Source: Saprospiraceae bacterium (GTDB taxonomy: Bacteria > Bacteroidota > Bacteroidia > Chitinophagales > Saprospiraceae). Taken from it: DNA of 32,103 nt. The notes under the pieces are model-generated. The model was not told where the DNA came from. It saw only the letters and a list, made by a program, of their open reading frames with translations, and made no database searches. The stretch lies in NCBI GenBank assembly GCA_020627865.1, contig JAHDGC010000003.1, forward strand, positions 1 through 32,103, written 5' to 3'. Shown here one piece after another: positions 442-25,461 of the stretch (position 1 is its first letter; the number at the start of each line of letters is the position of its first letter). The translations under genes and the position numbers were made by a program.

Positions 442-1545
442 TCATGCCGTTAACAAGGTCTCTACTTGATACCCTCTCTTCTGATAATACTGCATATTTT
501 CCTTCACGACAATATCCAATGGCAGGTACTGAATGGGTTCCACTGCTTCCTTTTCAACAAGGTGTTTATATAAGGTCTGTATCCCCAAAAAACCTTGCTC
601 AATTGGATTTTGGTTAATCAAAAAATTAATTTTATCTTCCCGTAAATAATTCAGGTTAGACTCGATGAGGTCGAAGCCGATGATCTTGATTTTCTTAACT
701 ATTTTTTCGTCAAGGCACTGTATGGCTTTGTAAGCCCTAGAGTTTGTGAAAAATATACCGGATAAATTAGTATATTTTTCAATCAAGCCTTGTAAAAAAG
801 TTTTTAGTTTCTCATTGTCATTGAATTCTTCAAACTCCAGATTAACAACCTTTACTTTTTTATTGCCATAATTATCAAAATAATATTGAAAACCTTCTTT
901 CTTTTCTATCAAGTGTTTGGCGTTCGTCGAACCTTTGGTCAAGTTTAAAATAATCACCGTTCTTTTTTTCGGTGTCCCAAAATTTAACAACCGTGCAGCA
1001 AGCACCCCGCTTTGATAAGAATGCTGACCGATATAGGATAGCTTTTTAGAAGATTGAAGATTGGTGTTGATAATGACACAGGGAATATTCAGGTTATCGC
1101 ACTTGTTGAGTAATTCCTCTCCTTCATTCAAAAACAAAGGGGAGAACAAAATACCATCTGGCCGGGTACCATCTGGCTGGGTTTTCAGAATATTCCTAGC
1201 TTGGCGATCAAAATCTTCAGGACTTAATAACTTGAAAAAATAATATTCAATATTCAACCCGAAATGCTGCACCTGCTTTCTGGCTTCTTCTGCACCAGCA
1301 AAAGGTTGTTTCCAATAAGGGTCTTCGTTGTAATCAGGAAGTAGCACCGCCACACGATAATTTTCTCCCTTGGCCAAAATACTCGCGGCTATATTACGCT
1401 CATAGCCTAATTCTTTCATGACCTTTAAAACTTCTTCTCTTTTTTCTGGAGATACTTTCCCCCTATTATGAATGACCCGGTCTACTGTGCCTGGGGATAC
1501 GCCGGCATGTTCTGCAACATCTATTATACGTACTCTTTTTTTCAT
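442..1545 (-). CDS. LacI-family transcriptional regulator
   Basis: A 367-aa protein with an N-terminal LacI-type helix-turn-helix (about residues 6-30, with VAEHAGVSPGTVDRVIHNRG as recognition region) and the hinge-like KVMKELGYERN. A periplasmic-binding-protein-like sugar sensor domain follows from about residue 60 (VAVLLPDYNEDPYWKQPFAG) to the end. Length fits LacI regulators. It is divergent from the ROK kinase/NagB operon, and three palindromic sites lie between the two. I infer that it represses, or is relieved by, an amino-sugar signal such as GlcNAc or GlcNAc-6-P and also controls its own promoter. The start is set by MKKRVRIIDVAEHAG, the normal LacI beginning. The effector cannot be read from sequence. 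Confidence 0.9.
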   Translation of the reverse strand: MKKRVRIIDVAEHAGVSPGTVDRVIHNRGKVSPEKREEVLKVMKELGYERNIAASILAKGENYRVAVLLPDYNEDPYWKQPFAGAEEARKQVQHFGLNIEYYFFKLLSPEDFDRQARNILKTQPDGTRPDGILFSPLFLNEGEELLNKCDNLNIPCVIINTNLQSSKKLSYIGQHSYQSGVLAARLLNFGTPKKRTVIILNLTKGSTNAKHLIEKKEGFQYYFDNYGNKKVKVVNLEFEEFNDNEKLKTFLQGLIEKYTNLSGIFFTNSRAYKAIQCLDEKIVKKIKIIGFDLIESNLNYLREDKINFLINQNPIEQGFLGIQTLYKHLVEKEAVEPIQYLPLDIVVKENMQYYQKRGYQVETLLTA

Positions 1546-1636: not shown

Positions 1637-1703
1637 TGTGTGCGCGCACAGTCAATATTAAATTTTTTGTGTGCGAACACAAAAAAAACTGTGTGCGCAC
1701 ACA
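1637..1703. promoter_or_regulatory. Three LacI-type operator palindromes
   Basis: Three copies of a 14-bp palindrome lie between the divergent genes. Site 1 (1637-1650) reads TGTGTGCGCGCACA and contains a perfect 12-bp palindrome at 1639-1650. Site 2 (1668-1681) reads TGTGTGCGAACACA and is flanked by T and A tracts. Site 3 (1690-1703) reads TGTGTGCGCACACA and is perfectly symmetric. Centres are about 31 and 22 bp apart, near three and two helical turns, so proteins would sit on similar faces. Even-length CG-centred palindromes are typical LacI-family operators. Site 3 abuts the kinase-side promoter and site 1 the regulator-side promoter. No similar site was seen upstream of susC, the GH20 gene or the symporter. 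Confidence 0.75.
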
Positions 1704-1762: not shown

Positions 1763-2743
1763 ATGAAAAAAATACATCAAAAATTAATACTCGGGGTTGA
1801 TATAGGTGGTACTTATATCAAGCTTGGGCTGGTTCATCCAGAGCAGGGAATTCTAGGGAAGGCACGGATTCGAACGGCTGCTGTCAAGGGGAAGTCAGGT
1901 TTTGTTAGAGCCCTTTCTGAGAAAATTGATGAATTGAAGCATACTACAAACTTGGATTATACATTAGAAGGGATAGGTATCGGGGCGCCTGGGATAAGTA
2001 CAGAAGAGGGGGTTATTGTTCAGGCCGCGAATATCTCTTTTTTGACGAATGTCAATCTCGTGAAACTGCTGGAGCGGGAATTTCATGTCCCAGTTGTGTT
2101 GGCCAAGGATAGTAGCTTGGCTGCTATAGGGGAAGGAGCGTTCGGTGTAGCAAAAGGTATGAAAAATTATATTGTACTCACACTTGGAACCGGATTGGGT
2201 TGTGCGGTAGTGGTCAATGGAGAAATATTGAAGGGGGCTTCTGGCTTGGCCGGAGAATTTGGACATACCTTAGTCCGGAAAAATGAACGATTGTGCGGTT
2301 GCGGACGAAAAGGATGCCTAGAAACCTATGTGTCAGGGAAGGGAATTGTCAGAACTGTCTTCGAATTGTTGGCCAATAGCAATAAAAAAAGTAGCTTACG
2401 GGATTATTCGTACAATGAAATCACGCCTAAAATAATTTTTCAAGAAGCCCAAAAAAATGATCCGGTTGCTAAAAAGGCATTCCGAGATACTGGAAAAATA
2501 CTAGGAGAGAAGATCGCAAACTTGTTCACCATCTTTGACCCAGAAGCTGTAATCCTCGCAGGAGGCCTCATCGAAGCGGCTGATTTTCTCCTGCCAGTTA
2601 TCGTGGAGACCGTAGAAAAAAGCACACTCTATTTTTTAAAAGATAAAACCAACGTTTTGTTGTCTGCTCTGGGAGCAAATGATGCCGCCTTGTTCGGTGC
2701 CGCATCTTTGATCCTGAAGAGAAAAAAAGAAATTTTGATATGA
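1763..2743 (+). CDS. ROK-family sugar kinase (probable N-acetylglucosamine kinase)
   Basis: A 326-aa protein starting MKKIHQKLILGVDIGGT. It has the N-terminal phosphate-binding DIGGT (13-17), a second nucleotide-binding segment LTLGTGLGCAVV (139-150), and the ROK zinc signature: H168 in EFGHT and C178, C180 and C185 in the CGCGRKGC run. The usual NDANAAA loop around the catalytic Asp reads KDSSLAA, keeping D116 but replacing the preceding Asn with Lys. ROK kinases phosphorylate glucose, GlcNAc or ManNAc. Sitting beside NagB and GH20, GlcNAc to GlcNAc-6-P is most likely. The start at 1763 was chosen over an upstream in-frame ATG at 1640 because that one lies inside the operator and would add 41 residues with no ROK homology. 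It overlaps the next gene by 4 bp (ATGA). Confidence 0.88.
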   Translation: MKKIHQKLILGVDIGGTYIKLGLVHPEQGILGKARIRTAAVKGKSGFVRALSEKIDELKHTTNLDYTLEGIGIGAPGISTEEGVIVQAANISFLTNVNLVKLLEREFHVPVVLAKDSSLAAIGEGAFGVAKGMKNYIVLTLGTGLGCAVVVNGEILKGASGLAGEFGHTLVRKNERLCGCGRKGCLETYVSGKGIVRTVFELLANSNKKSSLRDYSYNEITPKIIFQEAQKNDPVAKKAFRDTGKILGEKIANLFTIFDPEAVILAGGLIEAADFLLPVIVETVEKSTLYFLKDKTNVLLSALGANDAALFGAASLILKRKKEILI

Positions 2744-4683
2744 TTGCAACAAGTAAAATGAAAGAACCCAAGGTTTTAAAGTACCAGCTAAAATCTCTGG
2801 AAAAGCTTCCTGTAAAAATATGGGACGCATCCTCGCAGGCTTCCATTCATGTTGCCCATTCCATAGCCCTAGCGATTCGGCAAAAGCAACAGGAATCCGA
2901 AAATATCGTGTTAGGATTGGCCACAGGTTCTACACCTATTATGGTGTATAATGAATTGGTACGCATGCACAAGGAGGAAGGCTTGAGCTTTCACAATGTC
3001 ATCACGTTTAACCTTGATGAGTACTACCCGATGCCACCCGATGCTCGCCAGAGTTATGTCTACTTCATGAACGAGTATCTGTTTAATCATATTAATATTC
3101 CTAAAGAAAATATTCACATTCCTGATGGCACCCTTTCTATGGACGAAATCGGTGCTTATTGCGAACAGTATGAAAAACTGATTGATTTTCATGGTGGTAT
3201 TGACATCCAACTTTTGGGTATCGGACGAACAGGCCATATTGGTTTCAACGAGCCGGGTTCCTGGGAATCATCCCTGACTCGTCTCGTGCGTCTTGATCCG
3301 GTAACCAGACGAGATGCGTTGAAAGATTTTGTCAAGGAAGAAAATGTACCGCATCGGGCCGTTACAATGGGGATTGCCAGTATCATGAAGGCTAAAACCA
3401 TCTATCTGATGGCTTGGGGACAACACAAAGCTCCCGTTGTACAAAAAGCAGTCGAGGGTGTCATTACCTCAAGCATACCATCTACGTTTTTGCAAAAGCA
3501 TAACAATGTAAAAGTTGTGGTGGATACCGAAGCTGCTGGAGAATTGACGCGGGTTAAAACCCCTTGGCTGGTTGGTTTATGTAATTGGAATGATGACCTT
3601 GTTGCCAAAGCAGTCGTTTGGTTATCCCAAAAAGTAGATAAACCTATCCTAAAATTAACCGACCTCGATTATAACGAAAATCACCTAAGTGATCTTATTG
3701 TAGAACGCCACTCTGCTTATAGTATCAATATTGAAATCTTCAACCGCTTGCAAAGAACCATTACCGGATGGCCGGGCGGAAAACCGGGCGAAGATGACAA
3801 GTACAGACCGGAAAGGGCAATGCCTGCTAAAAAACGAGTCATCATTTTTAGTCCGCATCCGGATGATGATGTCATCTCCATGGGGGGCACTTTCCAAAGA
3901 CTTGTCGAGCAAGGGCATGAGGTGCATGTGGCTTATCAAACTTCTGGGAATATCGCCGTGCATGATCATGACGCTATTCGATTTTTAGAATTTATAGAGG
4001 AGTTTGGTATAAAAGAAGCGATCTTGAGCGAAGAAGGAAAAGAGAAGGTCAATAAGTTGATTAAAAAAATCATCAAGAAAAAAGCAAGGGAAAAAGACAC
4101 GGCTTCTACTTTGAATGTCAAGGGGATTATCAGAAGGGGAGAAGCAAGAGGCGGTGCCCGTTTTTGCGGCTTGACAGATGAACAGATTCATTTCCTCGAT
4201 TTGCCTTTTTATGAAACCGGTGCAACCCGTAAGAACCCTGTTGGAGATTTGGATATTGAAATCATTATGAGTCTAATTGAAAAAATCAAACCCCATCAGA
4301 TATATGCGGCCGGAGACCTTGCAGACCCACACGGTACGCACCGGGTTTGCCTGGATGCGATCTTTGAAGCCTTCGAGAAATTGAAATCCAAGAAGTGGAT
4401 GAAAGATTGTTGGCTTTGGCTGTACCGGGGCGCATGGCACGAATGGCAACCACACGAAATAGAAATGGCCGTGCCGATCAGCCCACAAGAATTGCACAAT
4501 AAACGGAAGGCTATTTTTATGCATCAATCCCAAAAAGATAGCCCGCCTTTCCCTGGCAATGACGAACGCGAATTCTGGGTAAGGGCCGAAGATAGAAATA
4601 GAGAAACGGCAGACAGATATCGCTCATTAGGCCTCGCCGAATATGAGGCGATGGAGGCATTTGTCCGCTGGAAATTTGAATAA
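2740..4683 (+). CDS. nagB: Glucosamine-6-phosphate deaminase fused to LmbE/PIG-L deacetylase domain
   Basis: A 647-aa two-domain protein, against about 260 aa for stand-alone NagB. Residues about 15-340 are NagB-like: LGLATGSTP (58-66), FNLDEYYP (90-97, catalytic Asp93) and GIGRTGHIGFNEPG (160-173). Residues about 364-647 are LmbE/PIG-L-like, with the zinc motif PHPDDD (372-377) and a later HGTH (531-534). NagB converts glucosamine-6-P to fructose-6-P and ammonia. PIG-L enzymes remove acetyl groups from GlcNAc moieties, so the second domain may deacetylate GlcNAc-6-P, which would explain the lack of nagA here; this is inference. The position equivalent to E. coli NagB Asp141 is Thr164, while the His143 and Glu148 equivalents (H166, E171) are kept. 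The start overlaps the kinase stop (ATGA), implying translational coupling. An internal ATG at 2758 is a possible alternative start. Confidence 0.88.
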   Translation: MIATSKMKEPKVLKYQLKSLEKLPVKIWDASSQASIHVAHSIALAIRQKQQESENIVLGLATGSTPIMVYNELVRMHKEEGLSFHNVITFNLDEYYPMPPDARQSYVYFMNEYLFNHINIPKENIHIPDGTLSMDEIGAYCEQYEKLIDFHGGIDIQLLGIGRTGHIGFNEPGSWESSLTRLVRLDPVTRRDALKDFVKEENVPHRAVTMGIASIMKAKTIYLMAWGQHKAPVVQKAVEGVITSSIPSTFLQKHNNVKVVVDTEAAGELTRVKTPWLVGLCNWNDDLVAKAVVWLSQKVDKPILKLTDLDYNENHLSDLIVERHSAYSINIEIFNRLQRTITGWPGGKPGEDDKYRPERAMPAKKRVIIFSPHPDDDVISMGGTFQRLVEQGHEVHVAYQTSGNIAVHDHDAIRFLEFIEEFGIKEAILSEEGKEKVNKLIKKIIKKKAREKDTASTLNVKGIIRRGEARGGARFCGLTDEQIHFLDLPFYETGATRKNPVGDLDIEIIMSLIEKIKPHQIYAAGDLADPHGTHRVCLDAIFEAFEKLKSKKWMKDCWLWLYRGAWHEWQPHEIEMAVPISPQELHNKRKAIFMHQSQKDSPPFPGNDEREFWVRAEDRNRETADRYRSLGLAEYEAMEAFVRWKFE

Positions 4684-4843: not shown

Positions 4844-7800
4844 ATGCGAATTTTAACCACTTTACTTGCGCTACTGCTTTTCGCAACATTAGCTATCGCG
4901 CAAAAAACGGTCTCAGGAACAATCATGGATGCTAATGGGGATACGGTCATTGGCGCCAACATTTTAGAAAAAGGTACTGCCAATGGAACAATAACAGATA
5001 TTGACGGTACTTTTAAATTGAAAGTCACCGATGAAAATGCTGTTCTTGTGATTTCTTACACCGGTTATGCTAATCAGGAATTGAAAGTATCCGAGCAAGC
5101 ATCCTTTGATAACATCGTCCTTCAAGAAGGTATAGATCTTTCTGAGGTTGTTGTCACGGCATTAGGTATTTCTAGAGAGAAGAAAGGTTTGACTTATGCC
5201 GTTGATGAAGTAGATGCTTCAGAGTTAACGACAGTGAAAGATGCGAACGTCGTAAATACCTTGTCGGGAAAAGCGGCTGGGGTATTTATTAATCGTGGTG
5301 GATCGGGTGTTGGTTCTTCTGCTAAAGTTATCTTGCGGGGGAACAAATCTACGACCAATAATCAACCACTGTATGTTGTGAACGGTATCCCGATCACCAA
5401 TAGTAATGCCGGTAGCCAAGCCGGTGTCTTTGGTGGCGGTGTCGATGGTGGTGATGGTATCTCGAATATCAACCCTGAAGACATTGAGTCTGTAAGTATT
5501 TTGAAAGGGGCATCCGCAGCGGCACTTTATGGAAGTCAGGCTGCAAATGGTGTCATCATGATTACTACAAAAAAAGGAGCCGCTGGGAAACCCAAAATTA
5601 GTTTGTCATCCAGTACGGTTTTTGAAAGTGTGTCCAGCCTTCCCGATTTGCAATACAAGTACGGGCAAAGTTCTCCAGGGGCAGAATTCAGTTGGGGCGA
5701 TGCGGTAAGTGCGCCCGATCATGTAACTGATTTTTTCCAGACGGGTGTTAATCTTATCAATTCTTTTTCCATTAGTGGAGGAGCAGAAAATATGCAAAGT
5801 TATTTTTCTTATTCCAATAATAGTGCTAAAGGAATTATTCCGACCAATGAATTGAAACGGCACAATTTCAGTTTCAATCAATCTGCTCAGTTTTTTGATA
5901 AAAAATTGGGCTTAAATGGTTCTGTAAATTTCATTAATCAAAAAGTGAATAATCGTCCTGCTGGAGGATTATATTTTAATCCTTTAACAGGCCTGTATTT
6001 TTTCCCAAGAGGATTGGACTTTGGAGAATATGAAAGCAACTATGAAGTTTACTCTCCTGACAGAAATATCAATTTACAAAACTGGGTGGCAGACAGAGAC
6101 ATTCAACAAAACCCTTTTTGGATTTTGAACAGAAACTTGAATGAAAACACCCGGAATAGAATGATCTCCGCAGTATCTGCAAAATACCAATTGACGGATT
6201 GGCTCAACGTTCAGGCTCGTGGTAATATTGATAAAGCAGTTGATAATTATGAACAAAAAGCTTACGCTTCTACCCAGGGGACATTGGCAGACCACAACGG
6301 ACGTTACGTTTTAAGGAATACAGATGAACAACAGCTTTATGGGGATGTTATACTTGGCATGAATAAAAATTTATCCGATAATCTAGCCTTGGATGTCAAT
6401 CTTGGAGCAAGCCACACGAACCGGAGTTTCTATACTGTTTTTGCAGATTCTAAAGATGGTGATTTATCCTTTGCCAATAAATTCGGATTGCAATATTTGA
6501 AAAACCCTAATGGCGGAAGATTATATGAGGGACTTTCTAGGGTAAAGAAAAATGCCGTTTTCGCAAGTGCGCAGTTAGGGATCAACAATGCCTATTATAT
6601 AGATCTTACGGCTAGAAATGATTGGTCTTCTGCATTGCCAACGCAATCGTACTTCTATCCCTCTATCGGTGCAAGTGTTGTGTTGTCGGAATTGTTTGAA
6701 GTGAAGGGAATGGATTTCGCAAAGCTTCGGGCATCTTATGCCATCGTGGGGAATGATGTGCCTGCCTACGCAACCAACGAGCGAGATAACAGAGGACAGG
6801 TTGTAAACGGTCAATTGGAATTGTCAGGAGAAGGCCCGATTCCGGGAACGATACTGCAACCAGAAGAATCCAAATCATTTGAGGTAGGATTGGATTTAAG
6901 GTTTTTGCAAAGCAAATTGACGCTGGATTTAACGTACTATAAAACAAACACTATCAATCAGTACATTAATATTTCTGCCCCTGCTGGTTCAGGGTTTGAA
7001 AGGTATTTGGTCAATGCAGGTGATATTCAAAATGCTGGAATCGAAGCAGCCTTGGGGTATAGACTTGTTGACAGAAAAAACTTTACATGGAATGGTTTCC
7101 TGAATTTTACAATGAATAGAAACGAAGTACTTGAGGTGCATCCTGAGTTTGATGAGAATGAGGAAGCGACTTTTTTCATTACGAATGAAGCGGTAAATAG
7201 TTATGGAATGGCCCTTAAGAAAGGCGGCTCATTTGGAGATATTTATGGGGTGCAATTCGCTAGAGATGACAATGGCAAAATGATTATTGATGCAGATGGT
7301 AAACCCAAAAAAGGAGACTTTGGGCTTTTAGGAAATCCAAATCCTGATTTCATGATGGGACTGAGTAATGAAATTGCTTTTAAAGGAATCAGTTTACGGT
7401 TTTTAATTGATGGTAGATTTGGTGGGCAAGTCATGTCCATAACTGAAGCCCTTCTGGATGAGTTTGGTGTTTCGCAGAGAACGGCTGATGCTCGGGATGC
7501 GGGCAGCGTATCTGTTGATGCTATTAGTGAAGTGGATAACTCCGCGATTTCAAGTATTGACCCGGCAACTTATTATGGTGCTGTTGGTGGCAGAAATGGT
7601 ATTACCGAAAATTATATTTACGATGCAACGAATATCCGATTAAGAGAGCTATCTGTAGGGTACCAACTTCCAAGTTCATTGTTAAAGAATTCTGGATTTA
7701 TCGAAACGGCAAAAATTTCTTTTATCGGTAGAAATCTTTTCTTCTTGATGAACGAGGCTCCGTTTGATCCTGATGTAACTTTTTCTACAGGTGTTGGACT

Positions 7801-7870
7801 GCAAGGCATAGATATTTTCAGTTTGCCAGCAAGTCGTAATTTTGGATTTAATATAACACTTGGGTTTTAA
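4844..7870 (+). CDS. susC: SusC/RagA-family TonB-dependent outer membrane transporter
   Basis: A 1008-aa protein with a signal peptide (about 1-19, ending AIAQ), a carboxypeptidase-regulatory-like beta-sandwich (about 22-95, VSGTIMDANGDTVIGANI) and the linker LSEVVVTALGISREKKG. A plug domain follows (about 110-235), with the SusC signature PLYVVNGIPI and SVSILKGASAAALYGSQAANGVIMITTK split over its end, then a C-terminal beta-barrel ending NFGFNITLGF. Length is normal. SusC forms the barrel of a pump whose lid is SusD, taking oligosaccharides into the periplasm with TonB energy. The surrounding kinase, deaminase and hexosaminidase point to chitooligosaccharides or GlcNAc-containing glycans. 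A 160-bp gap separates it from nagB. It could be read from the kinase promoter or its own; only a weak TATGTTTA at 4794-4801 resembles a -7 element. Confidence 0.93.
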   Translation: MRILTTLLALLLFATLAIAQKTVSGTIMDANGDTVIGANILEKGTANGTITDIDGTFKLKVTDENAVLVISYTGYANQELKVSEQASFDNIVLQEGIDLSEVVVTALGISREKKGLTYAVDEVDASELTTVKDANVVNTLSGKAAGVFINRGGSGVGSSAKVILRGNKSTTNNQPLYVVNGIPITNSNAGSQAGVFGGGVDGGDGISNINPEDIESVSILKGASAAALYGSQAANGVIMITTKKGAAGKPKISLSSSTVFESVSSLPDLQYKYGQSSPGAEFSWGDAVSAPDHVTDFFQTGVNLINSFSISGGAENMQSYFSYSNNSAKGIIPTNELKRHNFSFNQSAQFFDKKLGLNGSVNFINQKVNNRPAGGLYFNPLTGLYFFPRGLDFGEYESNYEVYSPDRNINLQNWVADRDIQQNPFWILNRNLNENTRNRMISAVSAKYQLTDWLNVQARGNIDKAVDNYEQKAYASTQGTLADHNGRYVLRNTDEQQLYGDVILGMNKNLSDNLALDVNLGASHTNRSFYTVFADSKDGDLSFANKFGLQYLKNPNGGRLYEGLSRVKKNAVFASAQLGINNAYYIDLTARNDWSSALPTQSYFYPSIGASVVLSELFEVKGMDFAKLRASYAIVGNDVPAYATNERDNRGQVVNGQLELSGEGPIPGTILQPEESKSFEVGLDLRFLQSKLTLDLTYYKTNTINQYINISAPAGSGFERYLVNAGDIQNAGIEAALGYRLVDRKNFTWNGFLNFTMNRNEVLEVHPEFDENEEATFFITNEAVNSYGMALKKGGSFGDIYGVQFARDDNGKMIIDADGKPKKGDFGLLGNPNPDFMMGLSNEIAFKGISLRFLIDGRFGGQVMSITEALLDEFGVSQRTADARDAGSVSVDAISEVDNSAISSIDPATYYGAVGGRNGITENYIYDATNIRLRELSVGYQLPSSLLKNSGFIETAKISFIGRNLFFLMNEAPFDPDVTFSTGVGLQGIDIFSLPASRNFGFNITLGF

Positions 7871-8007: not shown

Positions 8008-9579
8008 ATGAAAAAAGGTATTTTATATGTAGCTTCTTTAACCTTTATGGTTGGAGCAATGTTATGCTTGTCGGGTTGTAATAATGATTTTGAGGAATAC
8101 AACCAAGATCCCTATGCCATTACAGAAACGGATCTGGAAGCAGACTACCGGCTTGTCGGGGAGCCTTTCGTCAATATGATCCGCAACATTTATATACACA
8201 GACCAGAATGGCAACTACAACTACAGCAAAACCTCGTAGGAGATGTTTACTCTGGATACATGATGCCGCCAACACCATTTGCAGGAAATTCTAATAATAT
8301 GACGTACAACTTAGTAGATGGTTGGAATACTTGGATTTGGAATCCCGCGTACAACAATGTGATGTCTTCTGCATTATTTGTCGAACAAAAAGCGGGAGAT
8401 GATTTCCCAGAATTTATTGCTTGGTCTAAGATCGTAAAGGTTGCCGCTATGCATCGTCTGACGGATATATTTGGCCCCATCATTTACACCCAGTTTGGGA
8501 ATGTAGAAAAAGACGGTACCATTGGTTATGATTGCCAAGATGTAGTATACGATAACTTGTTTAAAGACCTCAACAGTGCCATAGCAGAGTTAGATGAATT
8601 TAGAGCCAATAGTGCTGCTGAGCCTTTTGCCCAGTTTGATGAAGTATATGGCGGGGATATGACAAAGTGGGTACAACTGGCCAACTCTTTAAGGTTGCGT
8701 TTGGCTATGCGGGTTTCAAAAGTTGATCCTGCCAGAGCACAAACGGAAGCAGAAAAAGCCATGAACCATCCTGACGGAGTCATCACTTCTAATGATGGTA
8801 ATTTCACCGTCAAGAATGATGTGGCTCATCCGCTGAATACTATAAATAGTGCTTGGGGGGATATCCGCATGGGGGCACCAATGCAATCTATTTTGATGGG
8901 ACTCAATGACCCTCGGATAGGTACTTATTTTCAAGTGTCTGAAAGAACCGGAGATTATCAAGGCATCCGCCAAGGAATTGAGATTGAAGATAAAGGAGAT
9001 TATGTTGACTTTTCCACACTTCAGAATTTAGGAGATGTACAGTTGATGACCGCAGCGGAGGTTTATTTTCTTCGTGCAGAAGGCGCACTTTGGGGTTGGA
9101 ACAACATGGGGGGCACTGCCCAAGAATTATACGAACTGGGGGTAACAACTTCTTTTGAGCAACATGGTTTGAGTGGGGTAAGCGATTACCTAGCTGATGA
9201 TACCAGTACTCCGGCTCCTTACAATGATCCGCAAAACAATGATAACAATGTAGATACAGGTTCTTCATATTTGAGTACGATAACCGTTGCTTGGGAAGGA
9301 GATGGTAATGAATTGGAGCGGATCATTACACAAAAATGGATCGCTATGTTTCCAGATGGACAAGAGGCTTGGTCAGAATATCGGAGGACAGGTTTCCCCG
9401 TTTTATTTCCTGTAATGGTAAATAATAGTGGTGGAGAGATTGATACCGAAGCACAAATCAAGCGGATTAAGTACATCTCTGGAGAGTATGCACAAAATCC
9501 GAATGGTGTCCAAACGGGCGTAAGTTGTTTAGGCGGTAGTGATACAGGAGGTACTGCGCTTTGGTGGGATGTGGATTGA
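8008..9579 (+). CDS. susD: SusD/RagB-family nutrient-binding outer membrane lipoprotein
   Basis: A 523-aa lipoprotein with lipobox LSGC and lipidated Cys24, followed by NNDFEEYNQDPYAITETDLE, the typical start of the SusD-like group 2 family. Family-like segments include KIVKVAAMHRLTDIFGPIIYTQ, the helical WVQLANSLRLRLAMRVSK, and AAEVYFLRAEGALWGW near residue 350. SusD sits on the cell surface as the lid of SusC and binds the sugar ligand. It follows susC after 137 bp with no other gene between. The sequence does not reveal the ligand; specificity for GlcNAc oligomers is inferred from neighbours. Confidence 0.92.
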   Translation: MKKGILYVASLTFMVGAMLCLSGCNNDFEEYNQDPYAITETDLEADYRLVGEPFVNMIRNIYIHRPEWQLQLQQNLVGDVYSGYMMPPTPFAGNSNNMTYNLVDGWNTWIWNPAYNNVMSSALFVEQKAGDDFPEFIAWSKIVKVAAMHRLTDIFGPIIYTQFGNVEKDGTIGYDCQDVVYDNLFKDLNSAIAELDEFRANSAAEPFAQFDEVYGGDMTKWVQLANSLRLRLAMRVSKVDPARAQTEAEKAMNHPDGVITSNDGNFTVKNDVAHPLNTINSAWGDIRMGAPMQSILMGLNDPRIGTYFQVSERTGDYQGIRQGIEIEDKGDYVDFSTLQNLGDVQLMTAAEVYFLRAEGALWGWNNMGGTAQELYELGVTTSFEQHGLSGVSDYLADDTSTPAPYNDPQNNDNNVDTGSSYLSTITVAWEGDGNELERIITQKWIAMFPDGQEAWSEYRRTGFPVLFPVMVNNSGGEIDTEAQIKRIKYISGEYAQNPNGVQTGVSCLGGSDTGGTALWWDVD

Positions 9580-9807: not shown

Positions 9808-12072
9808 ATGAAAATTTTAAAAGTACTATCTTTCCTGTTTTTGTTACTATTCATGCTACAATGCACCAATACAAAAACGCCAGAATCTACCCCTGCTAAC
9901 ATTAATACAACGTTCATTCCCTTCCCGCAAAAATTAGAATCTTCAGGCCATTTTTCAAACATCAATAACATTAAGCTATCCGATCAAGGAGTTGCTGTTG
10001 AACAATTCTTACCTTGGCTGACAACTTGGCCAATCCCAGTAGAAAAGACAAAGGCAGGGGAAAAAGCAAACCTAACCCTTAAAAATATCCCAACATTAAA
10101 AGCAGGAGCCTACACCCTTGCTATTCGTGAAAATGATTTTGAAATCCAGCACAAAGATCCAGAAGGATTAAGGAATGCATTGAGTACGGTGCATCAATTG
10201 TTAGAATTTAATGAAAGTAAACTGCCCATATTGGAGATCGCGGACGAGCGGGCTTTCCCATATCGAGGTATGCACCTTGATGTAGCACGGCACATGTTCC
10301 CTGTATCGGATATAAAACGCTATATTGATTATCTGGCTTTCTATAAATTAAACTATTTTCACTGGCATTTAACGGACGACCAAGGTTGGCGTATTGAAAT
10401 CAAAAAATATCCCAAGCTTCAGGAAATTGCCGCTTACCGGAAGGAAACCCTCGTCGGTCATTACAACGATCAACCACATCAATTTGACGGTAAAAAATAT
10501 GGTGGATATTACACCCAAGAAGAAATCAAAGATGTGGTGGCCTATGCCCATGCAAGAGGGATTGAAGTCATTCCTGAAATTGATGTTCCCGGACATAGTG
10601 CGGCTATCTTGGCCGCTTATCCGGAATTTGGCTGTATAGAGAAGACATACGAAACTGGCACGAAGTGGGGTGTTTTTTTTGATGTCCTTTGTCCCAAAGA
10701 AGAAACCTTTCAATTCCTCAGTGATATATTCGATGAAGTGATCGCGCTCTTTCCTTCACAATATGTACACATTGGTGGGGATGAGTGCCCTAAAGATCAA
10801 TGGAAAGAAAGTGCTTTTTGCAAAAAACTAAAAAAAGAGAATAATTTAAAGGATGAACACGAACTACAAAGTTATTTTATTAAACGAGTAGAAAAAATAA
10901 TCAACGATAAAGGTCGGAAGATTATTGGTTGGGATGAAATCCTCGAAGGAGGGCTAGCGCCCAATGCAACCATTACCTCTTGGAGAGGTATTGAGGGCGG
11001 GATTGATGCAGCACAGTTGCATCATCCCGCTATCATGGCGCCGAGTTCTCATTGCTATTTTGATTATTATCAATCAGAAGACCCAGACGAACCATTGGCC
11101 ATCGGGAACCTCATCCCTTATGAGAAAGTATACCATTGGAAACCGATTCCAGAGGAACTGCCCGACTCTTTGCATCAATTTATCATCGGAGGGCAAGGTT
11201 GCATTTGGACAGAGTATATGAAAGATTTTAAAAAGGTGGAATATATGGGATTGGTTAGAATGGCAACGCTAGCTGAAGTTTTATGGGGAAAAAATAGTTC
11301 CGACATTGATGCCTTTACCAATGCCTTATTTAATCATATTGTATATTGGAAAAAAGAAAAAGCAAATATTGCAAATCACTTGTTAGATATTCAGACGAGC
11401 GTAGAAATGGAACCCGGTAAAGGGGTTTATGTTACCTTAAAAACACCGCTTAATGATGCCAATAAATATAGTAAGAAGCCTACTACAAAAGATTTCACTT
11501 CTTTTGAAACAGATAAAATATGGCTTGAAGAAGATGGCAACTACCAATTTTATGCAGCATTACAGGGGCAGAAAGGGAGAACGAAGGACATCAAGTTTCA
11601 GGGTCATAAAGGCAATCTAGCTAAAGTTACTTTGAAAACTAAACCTTCAGAAAGATTTACTGGCAATGGGCCACAAAGTGTTTTTAATGGGATTAAAGGT
11701 TTTGAGGATCGCTATGGTGGTTCGGAGTGGTTGGGCTTCAGTGGAGATGATTTTGATGCGACCCTTACTTTTGATACACCACAAAATATACAATCCCTAT
11801 CCTTCAAATTTTTCAAAGGAGAGGGGCAGTGGATTTATCTACCGGCAAAAATAGAAGTCTACAATATATCCGATAAAGCAAAGCGACAACTGCTGGTCGA
11901 AACCAATAAAATTGAATCAGAAGGGAAAATATCCAACATTACGCTTCCTTTTTCAGCAGCAACGGTATCAAAACTAAATATTGTCGTCAAAAATTTTGGT
12001 AAAATCCCTGAAGGAAGACAAGGTGGTGGTAATGAAGCATTTTTATTTGTAGATGAAATTGAAATTAAATAG
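9808..12072 (+). CDS. GH20 beta-N-acetylhexosaminidase lipoprotein
   Basis: A 754-aa protein with lipobox FMLQC (Cys19), so membrane-anchored, probably at the outer membrane. It has an N-terminal GH20b-like domain (about 30-145). The catalytic TIM barrel starts at FPYRGMHLDVARH (150-162) and continues through LNYFHWHLTDDQGWRIEIK and EVIPEIDVPGHS. HIGGDEC holds the catalytic Asp325-Glu326 pair of substrate-assisted catalysis. The C-terminal part (about 560-754) contains FNGIKGFEDRYGGSEWLGF, typical of a discoidin-like accessory domain. The enzyme removes terminal GlcNAc from chitooligosaccharides or glycans. ATG 9808 was chosen because it begins the lipoprotein signal MKILKVLSFLFLLLFMLQC; an upstream in-frame TTG at 9778 adds ten unrelated residues. 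Confidence 0.93.
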   Translation: MKILKVLSFLFLLLFMLQCTNTKTPESTPANINTTFIPFPQKLESSGHFSNINNIKLSDQGVAVEQFLPWLTTWPIPVEKTKAGEKANLTLKNIPTLKAGAYTLAIRENDFEIQHKDPEGLRNALSTVHQLLEFNESKLPILEIADERAFPYRGMHLDVARHMFPVSDIKRYIDYLAFYKLNYFHWHLTDDQGWRIEIKKYPKLQEIAAYRKETLVGHYNDQPHQFDGKKYGGYYTQEEIKDVVAYAHARGIEVIPEIDVPGHSAAILAAYPEFGCIEKTYETGTKWGVFFDVLCPKEETFQFLSDIFDEVIALFPSQYVHIGGDECPKDQWKESAFCKKLKKENNLKDEHELQSYFIKRVEKIINDKGRKIIGWDEILEGGLAPNATITSWRGIEGGIDAAQLHHPAIMAPSSHCYFDYYQSEDPDEPLAIGNLIPYEKVYHWKPIPEELPDSLHQFIIGGQGCIWTEYMKDFKKVEYMGLVRMATLAEVLWGKNSSDIDAFTNALFNHIVYWKKEKANIANHLLDIQTSVEMEPGKGVYVTLKTPLNDANKYSKKPTTKDFTSFETDKIWLEEDGNYQFYAALQGQKGRTKDIKFQGHKGNLAKVTLKTKPSERFTGNGPQSVFNGIKGFEDRYGGSEWLGFSGDDFDATLTFDTPQNIQSLSFKFFKGEGQWIYLPAKIEVYNISDKAKRQLLVETNKIESEGKISNITLPFSAATVSKLNIVVKNFGKIPEGRQGGGNEAFLFVDEIEIK

Positions 12073-12281: not shown

Positions 12282-14054
12282 ATGGGACTTTCAACATTAG
12301 ACTGGATTTTTATCGCAGCATTTTTCGTCGTATCGCTCGTCATCGGTGTTATTGCCTCGAAACAAAGTGGCAAGAGTTCGGCAGACTTTTTTCTTTCTGG
12401 TAGAAATATGCCCTGGTGGTTGTTGGGGGTATCTATGGTGGCCACGACTTTCTCTGCTGATACCCCGAACCTTGTAACGGACCTTATCCGTAAAGATGGT
12501 GTTGCAGGAAACTGGGTTTGGTGGGCTTTCCTCGTAACAGGAATGCTGACTGTTTTTGTCTATGCCCGTTTGTGGCGGCGTTCCGGCGTGCTGACCGATC
12601 TTGCCTTTTACGAATTGCGCTATAGCGGAAAAGAAGCCGCCTTCTTGCGTGGATTCCGAGCGATCTATCTGGGTGTTGTTTTTAATATCCTCGTGATGGC
12701 TACAGTTTGTTTGGCTGCTATTAAAATCGGAAGTACGCTCCTAAATCTGTCGCCTATTCAAACATTGACTATTGCATCCGTCGTTACGGTAGCTTACTCC
12801 GCGATGGGTGGCCTGCGTGGGATTATTCTAACCGATTTTTTCCAGTTTATACTTGCCATGATCGGGACGGTCTGGGCTGCTGTGGTCATTGTGAATCTAC
12901 CTGAAGTGGGCGGATTGGAAACCATGCTCCAACACGAGAATGTAGTTGGTAAACTAGACTTGATTCCAGACATCAACAATACTGAAGTTTTCGTTACCCT
13001 CATGGTTATTCCTTTGGCTGTGCAATGGTGGGCTTCCTATTATCCCGGTGCAGAACCCGGTGGTGGAGGGTACATTGCGCAACGGATGCTAGCTGCCAAA
13101 GATGAAAAAAATGCCGTAGCAGCAACCTTATTTTTTAACATTGCCCACTATGCTTTGCGCCCCTGGCCTTGGATATTGATTGCCTTAGCGTCCTTGATTG
13201 TTTTCCCTGATTTGGATTCCATACAAAAGGCTTTCCCGAATATAGATAAAGGAGTTGTAGATGATGATCTTGCCTATTCTGCGATGCTGACCTACTTGCC
13301 GAATGGTTTGCTCGGTATTGTTGTGGCTTCCTTGATCGCCGCTTTTATGTCAACGATTTCTACCCATCTTAATTGGGGTTCTTCTTATGTCGTAAATGAT
13401 TTTTATGCCCGCTTTATAAACCCTGATGCTAGTGAAAAACAACTGGTATTTATGGGGCGTATTTCTACTGTTATACTTATGGTGTTGGCAGCTTTTGTGG
13501 CCTTATTCTTAAACAATGCCAAAGAAGCATTCGGCATCATCGTCTTGATGGGAGCCGGAACAGGTTTACTTTTTATCCTGCGCTGGTTCTGGTGGCGGAT
13601 CAATGCCTATAGTGAAATTGCCGCGATGGTCATTTCCTTTTTGGTGGCGGTGTATTTTAAGTTCATCAATCCTGGGCAATTAGCAGGTTATCAAGAATTG
13701 TTGGCGGGTGTCTTTATTACAACCATCGGTTGGATTGCTGTTACTTATATGACGGCTCCTGTTGCACAAAGCAAATTGGTTGATTTTTATAAATTGATAA
13801 AACCGCATGGCTATGGTTGGAAACCTGTTGTACAAAAAGCATTGGCTGCTAATGATCTGAAACAATCAGATATATCGGTAGGGAAATTACCGACGGAAAT
13901 CATGAGTATGTTTGCCGGTATATTTATGGTTTATGGTATTTTAATGTCAACGGGACTTTTCTTCTATGGTAATTATACCAAAATGTTTATCGGCCTAGTG
14001 GTCGCGGCTATTTCTGGTTTTATTATTTGGAAAAATTGGAAGACAGAAAATTAG
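12282..14054 (+). CDS. SSS-family sodium:solute symporter
   Basis: A 590-aa inner-membrane protein with about 13-14 hydrophobic segments. SSS-family features include DWIFIAAFFVVSLVIGV at the N-terminus, KSSADFFLSGRNMPWW, GVSMVATTFSADTPN (TM2-like sodium-site region), AYSAMGGLRGIILTDFFQF and STISTHLNWGSSYVVND. This family carries sugars, including GlcNAc and related compounds, with sodium. As the only inner-membrane transporter in the locus it is the likely importer of GlcNAc released by the GH20 enzyme; substrate is inferred from context. The ATG at 12282 (MGLSTLDW) is preferred over an upstream TTG at 12255 that falls within a hairpin stem. Confidence 0.9.
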   Translation: MGLSTLDWIFIAAFFVVSLVIGVIASKQSGKSSADFFLSGRNMPWWLLGVSMVATTFSADTPNLVTDLIRKDGVAGNWVWWAFLVTGMLTVFVYARLWRRSGVLTDLAFYELRYSGKEAAFLRGFRAIYLGVVFNILVMATVCLAAIKIGSTLLNLSPIQTLTIASVVTVAYSAMGGLRGIILTDFFQFILAMIGTVWAAVVIVNLPEVGGLETMLQHENVVGKLDLIPDINNTEVFVTLMVIPLAVQWWASYYPGAEPGGGGYIAQRMLAAKDEKNAVAATLFFNIAHYALRPWPWILIALASLIVFPDLDSIQKAFPNIDKGVVDDDLAYSAMLTYLPNGLLGIVVASLIAAFMSTISTHLNWGSSYVVNDFYARFINPDASEKQLVFMGRISTVILMVLAAFVALFLNNAKEAFGIIVLMGAGTGLLFILRWFWWRINAYSEIAAMVISFLVAVYFKFINPGQLAGYQELLAGVFITTIGWIAVTYMTAPVAQSKLVDFYKLIKPHGYGWKPVVQKALAANDLKQSDISVGKLPTEIMSMFAGIFMVYGILMSTGLFFYGNYTKMFIGLVVAAISGFIIWKNWKTEN

Positions 14055-15305: not shown

Positions 15306-16295
15306 CTAATTTTTCACAATAACAATACCATGCGCTTTTAAAAAAGGCATAACTTTTTCAAAAATAGAATGGTCAGCCCCTAATTGTTCGCAAAAAATTA
15401 ATCCTTTAGAGGTGATTTGTTTTTCCAAGAATAGCTTCAGTATGGCGACACAGAACAAGGCCGTGATCCTTTGCATGGAATTTAATGATGCTCTGGCAGG
15501 AGCAGAACAACTAATAGTCCAATGATTTTTCATTCTTTCATTTTCTACAGTAATAGTGGCGCAGGAGATGTTATCCGCTTGTTTAGACTCGACCATTTTT
15601 TTGGTTTGCAATAAATGGGCTTCATCGAAGAAACCATAATTGTGCATGAATTGAAAAAAGTGCATGAACCCTACCGGGCGAATATTGCGATAAGCAAAAT
15701 TTCTAATCTCAACGGGAGCATTGTCCAATAAGTTTTCAAAACCGCTTTGACAAAGATAACTTTCGCAAGCAATACCAAACAAGGATGATGTTTCGTATCC
15801 TGCAAAGGCGGGGAAAACCTTTTTAGCCCCATCGACTAATTGCTCGGATGGATGCAGGAACTCCAAAACCATATCTTCGAAACACCATAAGAAAGGAAAA
15901 AAATTAGCTTGCGGAGAAAGTGATCCTGCCTTCACGACCAATTGTGCTATTCGGTCAAAATTTTGAAATACATGCCCGAGGATAAAATTAACCAATCCGG
16001 GACAAAAACCTGCGCCACAAATTACGGTAATCCCCTGTTCTTCGATAGCACTTTTATGCTCCAGATAAAAATCAGTTTCAAGGTCTGCCAGATCTATCAA
16101 GTCAATTTTATGCTTTAAAGCTAAGTGCAAGGATTTTTCTCCTAACCCTCCAGGCAATGTCCCAATTAAAAGATCACTATATTTTGAAAGTTCCTCCGGT
16201 CTGTCTATATGCAATACTGCTGGGATACGCATTTCGTCAACAAAATGTTGGATGGCTTTGGCAATTCGTCCATTTCCTATAATATCTATGATCAT
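15306..16295 (-). CDS. Saccharopine-dehydrogenase-like NAD(P)-binding oxidoreductase
   Basis: A 329-aa protein with an N-terminal Rossmann start (MIIDIIGNGRIAKAIQHFVD) and the segment VICGAGFCPGLVNFILGHVF (about residues 92-111), typical of the saccharopine dehydrogenase/reductase fold. A C-terminal alpha/beta domain follows. The family includes lysine-pathway enzymes, homospermidine synthase relatives and carboxynorspermidine dehydrogenase, which condenses an aldehyde with a diamine. Its ATG overlaps the speE stop by 4 bp (ATGA), so the two products are made together. That points to a polyamine reaction, perhaps modification of spermidine or use of a related amine; the exact reaction is unknown. 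At 329 aa it is shorter than typical carboxynorspermidine dehydrogenases, which I recall as about 400 aa. Confidence 0.72.
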   Translation of the reverse strand: MIIDIIGNGRIAKAIQHFVDEMRIPAVLHIDRPEELSKYSDLLIGTLPGGLGEKSLHLALKHKIDLIDLADLETDFYLEHKSAIEEQGITVICGAGFCPGLVNFILGHVFQNFDRIAQLVVKAGSLSPQANFFPFLWCFEDMVLEFLHPSEQLVDGAKKVFPAFAGYETSSLFGIACESYLCQSGFENLLDNAPVEIRNFAYRNIRPVGFMHFFQFMHNYGFFDEAHLLQTKKMVESKQADNISCATITVENERMKNHWTISCSAPARASLNSMQRITALFCVAILKLFLEKQITSKGLIFCEQLGADHSIFEKVMPFLKAHGIVIVKN

Positions 16296-17173
16296 TTGAG
16301 TTGCATATTAGTTGGCAAACATTGAGCGGCATGGTGTATGTCTGCATTATAATATTTTAAACTATTTTTCTGTATAAATTTTTCTACTCTTTCTTTTATT
16401 TGCTCCGCAGGAATATTTTTTAAATCAAGCCCATTACTCGCTCCCATGAAACAATATTCCCCACAATGATAACAAGGCATAGTCAATTTACTAGCAGTAG
16501 TATATTTGAAAATAGATTTTAAGTTATCGTGCATTTCCTGCAAGAAGTCAAAATCCATGAAGGAACCCATCTGGAAAGAGCAGATTCCATTTTCAGTGAG
16601 GGCAGCACCAATGTCTTGATAAAATGCCTTGGAGAACAGTTTTTCTGATGGGCCAATGGCATCATTGCAATCAATAATGATGATGTCAAAATGGTTCTGA
16701 AATTTTTTCATGAAGGCCAGACCATCTTCAAACAAGACCTTAGCCTTCTCATGTTGGAAGGCGCCATCTGAAATAAAGGGTAAGTATTGTTGACAAATTT
16801 CGACAACTTTCCCATCAATATCAACCATCGTGCATTCTTCAATATCATGCTTGATGACTTCTCGCAAGGTGCCGCCATCTCCCCCTCCAATGATCAAAGC
16901 CCGTTTCGGATTGGGATGACATAGGATGTAAGGATGCGTAAGCATTTCATGATAGATGAACTCATCACTTTCCGAAAGTTGGACGATACCATCTAAAACA
17001 AGGACTTTTCCATAAACAGCATTCTCGAAGATTAAAATATCTTGAAAATCTGTTTTACCTTTATATATAAGTTGCTCAATTACGAATTTGTGGTGTATCT
17101 TCCCATATCTTTTTCCAGGGACAGTTCCCTCAGAAAAATAAATATCATTTTGAGGGGAGGATGTATTCTTCAT
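16292..17173 (-). CDS. speE: Spermidine synthase (aminopropyltransferase)
   Basis: A 293-aa protein with the family's motifs in order: the substrate region SESDEFIYHEMLTHP (about 67-81), the SAM-type Rossmann loop ALIIGGGDGGTLREVIKHD, the acidic strand end MVDIDGKVVEI, and IIIIDCNDAIGPSEKLF, which matches the usual DSxDPxGPxxxLF catalytic loop with Ala in place of Pro. It transfers an aminopropyl group from decarboxylated SAM to putrescine or a similar amine. It lies 107 bp after speD and overlaps the next gene by 4 bp. Several Cys residues (MPCYHCGEYC) near residue 235 are unusual in appearance and could bind metal, but this is untested. Confidence 0.92.
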   Translation of the reverse strand: MKNTSSPQNDIYFSEGTVPGKRYGKIHHKFVIEQLIYKGKTDFQDILIFENAVYGKVLVLDGIVQLSESDEFIYHEMLTHPYILCHPNPKRALIIGGGDGGTLREVIKHDIEECTMVDIDGKVVEICQQYLPFISDGAFQHEKAKVLFEDGLAFMKKFQNHFDIIIIDCNDAIGPSEKLFSKAFYQDIGAALTENGICSFQMGSFMDFDFLQEMHDNLKSIFKYTTASKLTMPCYHCGEYCFMGASNGLDLKNIPAEQIKERVEKFIQKNSLKYYNADIHHAAQCLPTNMQLK

Positions 17174-17280
17174 TTTTTATTTTAATTTTTTAGTTATAAT
17201 ATGCACTGAAGCACACGATTCTTACCTGTATCGTTTTACACATACAGTTGATAAATAACAGTTACAATATATGGCTTGAC

Positions 17281-17712
17281 TTATTTATCTAATGAGTCTT
17301 TATGTTTCCCTCTATATATGGTGTTGATCTCGAACCGCTCAGGTTTAAGCTGTTCTTTTAAATAGGTAATAGCTTCATGCGGAGAAGTGTGCTTTCCGCA
17401 GGTAAATATATCTAGTGCACAATATTGCTTTTCCGGCCAAGTATGGATAGAAATATGGCTTTCTCCCAAAATAGCAAAAGCCGTATATCCCATCGGGCTA
17501 AACCTATGTGCATCGTATTTCAATAGTTCACAATTGGCTTTGCGGGCAGCTTCCGTGATGGCGGCTTCAAAGTTAAATACGTCCTCCTCTATGCGGCATT
17601 CCCAAAATTCAGCAATAACATGAACGCCAACATATGCTTCCCTTTCATCTTGGAAACCGTTGACATGAAGATTATTTTCTATTGCATTAATAGGTGTGTT
17701 TAATTTTTTCAA
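17281..17712 (-). CDS. speD: S-adenosylmethionine decarboxylase proenzyme
   Basis: A 143-aa protein of the short prokaryotic SpeD type. It holds LGESHISIHTWPE (82-94), in which the bond between Glu84 and Ser85 is cleaved to make the pyruvoyl group, and the following YCALDIFTCG (97-106) with the catalytic Cys. It makes decarboxylated SAM for SpeE. The N-terminus (about 1-25) is somewhat extended and shows no targeting signal. It is the first gene of the cluster, with a -7-like element at 17786-17793. Confidence 0.93.
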   Translation of the reverse strand: MKKLNTPINAIENNLHVNGFQDEREAYVGVHVIAEFWECRIEEDVFNFEAAITEAARKANCELLKYDAHRFSPMGYTAFAILGESHISIHTWPEKQYCALDIFTCGKHTSPHEAITYLKEQLKPERFEINTIYRGKHKDSLDK

Positions 17713-17889: not shown

Positions 17890-18873
17890 TCACACATTGT
17901 TTCCACAGACTACTTTTTGTAAATCATGACTGATGAAACAATCGGGATTCAACTCTACGATGAACGTGGAACCCTCCCCAACTTGGCTACGAACACGCAG
18001 CTTCCCTCCCTCACTTTCTACGATTTTCTGACAGGTCGATAGCCCAAGCCCTGTTCCTTCATATTGATCGTTTCGGTGTAATCGACTAAACATCTTGAAA
18101 ATCTTCGGAACCATCTCTTCTGGGATACCAATGCCATTGTCCTGAAAAAGGAGCTGATGGCAACCTTCTTTTTCTATGGCACTAATTTGGATGGTCGGGG
18201 CTTCCGATTCATTGTATTTTATCCCGTTCTCGATGAGGTTCTTAAATAGCATAAATATCTTTGAGGCATTAAATTTTATACAAGGCAGTACATTATGGAT
18301 GATGATTTCGGCATTTCGTTGCTTCAAGTATTCAGATATAGATTCCGTTATCGTCTTGACCAAAGCATTCAGATCTATCTGTTCTAGTTCTTCTTCGGCA
18401 TTACTCGACAGTCGGGAAAACTCCAAAACATCTGTAATCAAGTTTTTAAGTCTGGTACTTCCCAATTTAATAAAGCTCAGATATTGTGAGACGTTTGGAT
18501 TATTCATCCCAGCAATTTCCTTTTCCAATAAAACCGTAAAACTGATAATATTGGCTAAAGGTGTTTTCAGGTCATGTGAGGCGATGTATGCAAAACGCTC
18601 TAATTCACCATTTGATTTTTCCAGTTTTTCATTGGTGTTCTTTAATTCATCATTTGTCTTTTTTAAGGCTTCATTACTGTCTTCTAATAATGCTACTGTT
18701 TTTTTTACGAAATTTTCATTTACTTTTATATCTTGCTTTTGGCGATTAATCCAGAAGACATTCCGGATGTGTTCCTCCTCCAAATCTTCAACCACTTGGA
18801 GCAAGTCCCGTCTTTTTATATCCGTTGTTTCCAGTTGTTTAACCAGCTGCTTGAGCTGTTCAAATTTAGACAT
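17890..18873 (-). CDS. Soluble sensor histidine kinase
   Basis: A 327-aa kinase with no membrane segment or signal peptide. Residues about 1-93 form a long coiled coil (ALKKTNDELKNTNEKLEKSN). The HisKA H-box is FAYIASHDLKTPLANI, with phospho-acceptor His100. The ATPase domain shows the N-box NLIENGIKYN, the G1 box DNGIGIPEE and the G2 box GTGLGLSTCQKI, so it should be active. It lies 4 nt after the FIST gene and is surely co-transcribed with it. FIST proteins are thought to be ligand-sensing, so the kinase probably reads the FIST protein's state in the cytoplasm, with the coiled coil as signal arm. No response regulator is adjacent. Confidence 0.9.
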   Translation of the reverse strand: MSKFEQLKQLVKQLETTDIKRRDLLQVVEDLEEEHIRNVFWINRQKQDIKVNENFVKKTVALLEDSNEALKKTNDELKNTNEKLEKSNGELERFAYIASHDLKTPLANIISFTVLLEKEIAGMNNPNVSQYLSFIKLGSTRLKNLITDVLEFSRLSSNAEEELEQIDLNALVKTITESISEYLKQRNAEIIIHNVLPCIKFNASKIFMLFKNLIENGIKYNESEAPTIQISAIEKEGCHQLLFQDNGIGIPEEMVPKIFKMFSRLHRNDQYEGTGLGLSTCQKIVESEGGKLRVRSQVGEGSTFIVELNPDCFISHDLQKVVCGNNV

Positions 18874-18877
18874 ATCA

Positions 18878-22060: not shown

Positions 22061-22137
22061 GTTTGTGTTTATAAGAAGTGAGTTTTATAAACAAAATTTG
22101 AACATATGACAAATTGGGTGCAACTAAGTCAATAACT

Positions 22138-22222
22138 ATCCTCCCCCTATCCCCCTCCTGAGGGGGAAATGGCCTTTCGGCATTAGAGCGATCTCCCCCT
22201 CGGGAGGGGGCGGAGGGAGGAT
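22138..22222. repeat. 85-bp C/G-rich imperfect inverted repeat (REP/MITE-like)
   Basis: The left arm starts ATCCTCCCCCTATCCCCC (22138-) and pairs with the right arm ending GGAGGGAGGAT (to 22222). Arms are about 31 nt with few mismatches, around a loop with ATGGCCTTTCGGCAT. Each arm also contains its own smaller palindrome, CCCCCTCCTGAGGGGG and CCCCCTCGGGAGGGGG. Composition is sharply different from the AT-rich flanks. It lies between the GH16 and glucan-binding genes. Such elements are, from memory, frequent dispersed repeats in Bacteroidota. It contains a spurious proline-rich - strand frame. Confidence 0.75.
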
Positions 22223-22292
22223 TTCTGAAACCCATAATTAGATCGTGATACTACTTAACAAAAATAAAACAAAAATAAAAACAGATTGAATT

Positions 22293-25412: not shown

Positions 25413-25461
25413 TCGTAGTTAATACATCATAGATATATTGCCTGTTTCAACTTATAACCTC

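Follow-up and report, generated by a model that had tools for sequence, protein, structure and literature searches.

A NagB–PIG-L fusion protein as a candidate bifunctional enzyme of GlcNAc-6-P catabolism in a predicted chitin regulon of a Saprospiraceae bacterium

Proteins in which a NagB domain is joined to a LmbE/PIG-L domain are already known, and form the NCBIfam family PRK02122 (NF002557), named "glucosamine-6-phosphate deaminase-like protein". BT_0258 of B. theta is presumably a member. By its sequence, the fusion described here is also a full-length member with the same architecture, 56-72% identical to the other copies aligned. It represents a named family and is no discovery of the present window, which is the whole 32,103-nt stretch of DNA analysed. 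The "NagB" of the F. johnsoniae ChiUL, Fjoh_4557, is very likely another member, as suggested by a matching locus in our set (L082). Larsbrink et al. named this chitin-locus gene nagB and gave the NagA role to a different gene; they were unable to express the nagB product in E. coli, and deletion of nagB gave no chitin phenotype, three other nagB-like genes being present (PMC5127042). No paper assaying the PIG-L half of the fusion was found in the open-licence literature.

Three described enzymes are useful for comparison. NagA (TIGR00221) catalyzes the reaction proposed here for the PIG-L half, GlcNAc-6-P to GlcN-6-P and acetate; however, it has an unrelated amidohydrolase fold and was not found in the assembly. 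In the work of Price et al. 2022 (PMC9007349), NagA was implicated in the use of glucosamine for just four of the five bacteria; the remaining one (panel 3E) is Echinicola vietnamensis, a member of the Bacteroidota. The N,N'-diacetylchitobiose deacetylases (4xm1, 8bgo) are, among solved PIG-L enzymes, closest to the PIG-L half by sequence and fold, and share its HxDD + H site and a role in chitin catabolism, but they are separate enzymes and their substrate is unphosphorylated. The monomeric B. subtilis NagB (2bkv) resembles the NagB half in fold, with 41% identity and equivalents of D93, H166, E171, and K230, although it has no PIG-L half and contains Asn in place of Thr164.

Domains and conserved residues of the fusion protein

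The fusion is encoded by one uninterrupted ORF at 2740..4683 on the plus strand (647 aa, ATG start). The earlier note had read this ORF as NagB joined to LmbE/PIG-L, and the profile searches found both Pfam domains in it. The NagB domain (2800..3549, residues 21-270) matches Glucosamine_iso (PF01182) over residues 32-255 with 78.7 bits (cutoff 27), and the NagB model TIGR00502 is also matched above its cutoff (244.6 vs 236.9 bits). A linker of about 90 residues follows (3550..3825, residues 271-362), in which GWPGGKP is invariant. The PIG-L/LmbE domain (3835..4374, residues 366-545) matches PF02585 over residues 369-544 with 63 bits (cutoff 28.2). The C-terminal extension (4375..4680, residues 546-647) lies past the Pfam PIG-L model and carries WLYRGAW, HQSQKD, and REFW. 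Linker and extension are both strongly conserved among the fusions; in the extension, 26 of 102 positions are at least 98% conserved (98 sequences). The bacillithiol deacetylase model BshB1 (TIGR04001) reached only 26.8 bits against a cutoff of 182.5, and the searches of the window proteins, the fusion included, gave no match to the NagA profile or the amidohydrolase domain.

The family model NF002557 covers residues 9-646 (profile positions 15-652 of 653) with 1047.9 bits against a cutoff of 384, so the fusion is not a chance match. The same model was searched in a sample of 392 Bacteroidota genomes, at least 95% complete except for the window's own genome (87.6%). It scored above the cutoff in 171 of them, many of which carry two or three copies. 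The identical architecture in 171 genomes rules out an assembly artefact as the origin of the fusion. The AlphaFold (AF2) model of the protein has a mean pLDDT of 88.6 and a pTM of 0.81.

The two zinc motifs of the PIG-L half lie exactly where they had been placed, PHPDDD at residues 372-377 (3853..3870) and HGTH at residues 531-534 (4330..4341). The HxDD + H motif and the roles of its residues have been described for the LmbE superfamily (PMC4101496). H373, D376, and H534 correspond to the metal ligands and D375 to the general base; all four are kept in 98 of 98 fusions. H531, the likely general acid, is kept in 96. In a Foldseek search, the nearest solved fold to the PIG-L half of the model was the archaeal N,N'-diacetylchitobiose deacetylase 4xm1 (TM 0.70 by target). 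By sequence, too, diacetylchitobiose deacetylases are the nearest PIG-L proteins of solved structure, with the similarity confined to the first motif; the insert and the C-terminal extension of the fusion do not align to them. Several invariant basic residues (K461, R465, R610, R615, and R619, together with K498 in 97 of 98) form an attractive candidate for a 6-phosphate site.

The NagB half is also well conserved. D93, H166, E171, and K230 are invariant in the 98 fusions, and we take them to be the equivalents of the catalytic Asp72, His143, and Glu148 and the phosphate-binding Lys208 of E. coli NagB. The position of E. coli Asp141 is occupied by Thr164 in the present fusion, and by Thr (75), Asn (17), or Ser (6) across the 98 sequences. 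In the alignment, the solved B. subtilis NagB has Asn at this position; Asp141 is therefore not strictly required, and its replacement alone is no argument for lost activity. The NagB half of the model superimposes on B. subtilis NagB 2bkv with a TM of 0.97 by target. Judged by the conserved residues, both halves look active.

The locus and a predicted chitin regulon

The fusion gene lies in an operon with GlcNAc-related functions. A LacI-family regulator (442..1545, minus strand; PF00356 and PF13407) is divergent from the operon. The first operon gene encodes a ROK sugar kinase (1763..2743, plus strand; PF00480, 227.6 bits), which likely starts at an ATG, the GTG start listed at 1640 overlapping the operators; its stop codon overlaps the start codon of the fusion (ATGA). 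The following genes, all on the plus strand, encode a SusC-type TonB-dependent receptor (4844..7870), a SusD-like lipoprotein (8008..9579; PF12741, 606 bits), a GH20 hexosaminidase (9808..12072; PF00728, 392.8 bits), and an SSF sodium:solute symporter, which is the probable GlcNAc importer (12282..14054; PF00474, 119.6 bits). The hexosaminidase, importer, kinase, and deaminase named in the earlier note are thus all present. Among 80 named loci, some of them incomplete, a relative of the window's kinase, symporter, GH20, or SusC/D was found on the same strand within 8 kb in 31, and a nagA homologue in two.

The remainder of the window encodes other functions. A polyamine-type cluster (15306-17712, minus strand) contains a saccharopine-dehydrogenase-C protein, a spermidine synthase, and, by eye, an AdoMet-decarboxylase-like protein. 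A FIST sensor-domain protein adjoins a histidine kinase, the latter recognized by eye (17890-20029, minus strand). On the plus strand, a GH16 protein precedes one containing repeated AMPK1-CBM/CBM48-like modules (20429-24227), and a repetitive surface-type ORF of more than 2,200 aa (25438-32103) continues beyond the window end.

Three predicted operators lie between the LacI gene and the ROK kinase gene, ahead of the operon: TGTGTGCGCGCACA at 1637..1650 and TGTGTGCGAACACA at 1668..1681, each with one mismatch to the palindrome, and the perfect palindrome TGTGTGCGCACACA at 1690..1703. With up to two mismatches, 0.08 occurrences are expected per window and four were found, one of which overlaps the third copy. 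Their position and symmetry suggest that they are bound by the LacI protein. In a genome-wide search allowing one mismatch, TGTGTGCGCACACA was found in just two places besides the operon; a reversed-pattern control gave none. Two copies lie 52 bp before the gene of a secreted GH18-domain protein on contig C156, and the second place, on contig C329, is 134 bp before an LPMO10 gene. The first of these predicted LacI-regulon members (L237:2545-6309, plus strand) is 1254 aa long and has a Por secretion tail; the second (L238:1813-3141, minus strand) has a weak CBM5/12. Two further PIG-L genes score above the cutoff in the assembly (C814 and C199), neither with such an operator. In other bacteria, an exact copy of the operator lies 104 bp before the fusion in L050, and a copy with one mismatch lies 115 bp before it in L087. 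With up to three mismatches and within 600 bp upstream, a site was found for only 3 of 97 other fusions; therefore, the operator is not general to the fusion family.

The fusion thus belongs to a predicted chitin regulon comprising GH18, LPMO10, GH20, SusCD, the symporter, and the kinase. This regulon would span the route from chitin to fructose-6-P, and the PIG-L half is its sole candidate for GlcNAc-6-P deacetylation. The source bacterium appears to eat chitin.

Distribution of nagA and the function of the PIG-L half

The window encodes no NagA, as the earlier note had observed. The search was extended to the rest of the genome (7.30 Mb, 997 contigs, 87.6% complete), and only partial matches to TIGR00221 of at most 28 bits were found in the assembly (cutoff 225.65). 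A nagA hidden elsewhere is ruled out for this assembly, which is about 12% incomplete. The fusion is the one NagB-family gene found in the assembly by the NF002557 search.

The genome sample shows a similar pattern, with nagA called by TIGR00221 at E <=1e-20. Of the 171 fusion genomes, 124 (73%) lack it, compared with 11 of 35 genomes having only a strong unfused NagB (31%; Fisher p 8e-6, uncorrected for kinship). The contrast is also seen in the GH20-positive genomes only (Fisher p 7e-4, likewise uncorrected). Nearly all of the 124 fusion-positive, nagA-negative genomes are at least 95% complete, and 88 of them contain GH20, compared with 43 of the 191 genomes that lack both the fusion and nagA.

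The two genes also occur together, in 47 of the 171 fusion genomes (27%), and a strong nagA was found in 28 of 49 named fusion genomes of a second set (57%). Coexistence is usual in Pedobacter, Mucilaginibacter, and Sphingobacterium. At L125, L126, and L065, which are Flavobacterium-type loci, nagA is the immediate neighbour of a fusion whose PIG-L residues are intact; a GlcNAc 2-epimerase gene and a sialate-esterase-type (GDSL/SASA) gene are located near L125 and L065, and the three loci probably serve sialic acid use. In four other genomes with both genes that were checked, nagA adjoins a separate divergent NagB, and in G119 it lies among housekeeping genes. On the fusion tree, nagA presence requires 14 changes versus 17 when shuffled, which is weak clustering. 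The PIG-L metal and base residues are all kept in the 98 fusions, with or without nagA in the genome. As a gauge of relaxed selection on the PIG-L half in genomes that have nagA, the median ratio of PIG-L to NagB distance was compared; it is 0.91 where nagA is present and 0.77 where it is absent, with no correction for kinship. Since nagA coexists with intact fusions, the PIG-L half is no simple substitute that vanishes where NagA is present; its retention beside NagA might mean that the two are redundant, or that its substrate is different or broader.

The earlier note had proposed that the PIG-L half fills the nagA gap. This part of the claim gains from the assembly and the predicted regulon, which offer no nagA and no other deacetylase candidate, respectively, from the higher frequency of nagA absence in fusion genomes, and from the kept catalytic residues; it is weakened by the genomes having both genes and by the Flavobacterium loci in which they adjoin. 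The F. johnsoniae nagB deletion, which left chitin use unaffected with paralogues present, and the unphosphorylated substrate of the nearest solved PIG-L enzymes also count against it. On balance, we consider it probable, with reserve, that the fusion is a bifunctional GlcNAc-6-P deacetylase/GlcN-6-P deaminase of cytoplasmic GlcNAc catabolism within the chitin regulon. Chitin would be cut by the secreted LPMO10 and the GH18 protein, and its oligomers taken in and split by SusC/SusD and GH20. GlcNAc might then be imported by the SSF symporter and converted to GlcNAc-6-P by the ROK kinase. The PIG-L half would deacetylate GlcNAc-6-P to GlcN-6-P, using one metal on H373, D376, and H534, D375 as the base, and H531 as the likely acid. 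The NagB half (D93, H166, E171, and K230) would isomerise and deaminate GlcN-6-P to fructose-6-P and ammonia. In this scheme, the PIG-L substrate and the step order are inferences, and channelling between the active sites is a possibility.

Other functions of the PIG-L half were also considered. It might act on another N-acylated amino sugar, such as GalNAc, ManNAc, or a muropeptide derivative, leaving GlcNAc-6-P to NagA or an unrecognised enzyme. The loci where nagA adjoins an intact fusion beside GlcNAc 2-epimerase and sialate-esterase-type genes would suit this idea, as would the coexistence of nagA in 27% of the fusion genomes. Moreover, eleven genomes with an unfused NagB lack both the fusion and nagA, which shows that another route exists. 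However, the present operon and predicted regulon hold only chitin/GlcNAc functions, and in the four checked genomes nagA accompanies the divergent NagB rather than the fusion. Such a substrate therefore appears unlikely for the present fusion.

It also seems rather improbable that the PIG-L half removes the acetyl group from unphosphorylated GlcNAc or chitobiose, with the ROK kinase then phosphorylating GlcN and the NagB half finishing the route. The nearest solved relatives by sequence and fold (4xm1) do act on diacetylchitobiose in chitin catabolism, and a B. theta ROK kinase was reported to phosphorylate both GlcN and GlcNAc (PMC11300592). But a kinase step would separate the two fused halves, which would then not be consecutive; the sequence likeness stops after the first motif; and little chitobiose should reach the cytoplasm past the periplasmic GH20. 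As the assembly is 87.6% complete, a structural or regulatory, non-catalytic PIG-L half with nagA in the unassembled 12% was considered as well. The metal ligands and general base invariant in 98 of 98 proteins, and the absence of nagA in 124 fusion genomes out of 171, almost all of which are at least 95% complete, make this highly improbable.

There is an even chance, in our estimate, that NagA–NagB pairs have given way to NagB–PIG-L fusions widely across the Bacteroidota, so that GlcNAc-6-P is converted to fructose-6-P by one protein, possibly with channelling. The PIG-L half would then be an enzyme with specificity for a sugar 6-phosphate, and the change would amount to a non-orthologous replacement of NagA throughout the phylum, in a textbook pathway. 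The Bacteroidota are known for the breakdown of chitin and host glycans; most of their fusion genomes have no recognisable NagA, so GlcNAc use appears incomplete there in pathway tools. The function of the PIG-L half bears on this gap for about 40% of the sampled Bacteroidota, and also on whether sugar phosphates can be substrates of PIG-L enzymes.

Split and divergent relatives

In one genome (G257), the NagB and PIG-L parts are two distinct genes that lie next to each other, both on the minus strand (C39:16219-17810; loci L179, L190, and L191). The missing linker makes a frameshift artefact unlikely. This genome has no nagA. In the class to which G257 belongs, every other match to the PIG-L profile of the fusion lies in a fused frame, except two that are cut at contig ends. 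The split PIG-L gene has no in-frame ATG or GTG upstream of the motif, and may start at TTG. By eye, the neighbours of the pair are Mla-type ABC transporter genes and not GlcNAc genes.

A divergent NagB–PIG-L relative of 786 aa is encoded in a genome of the same taxonomic family as that of the window (G007, contig C52; L174:568-2925, minus strand). Its NagB-like part carries GPDGHIAFN and its PIG-L part carries PHHDD and PDTH, with a Pfam PIG-L score of only 21.6 bits. Proteins of this type possibly form a second fusion family.
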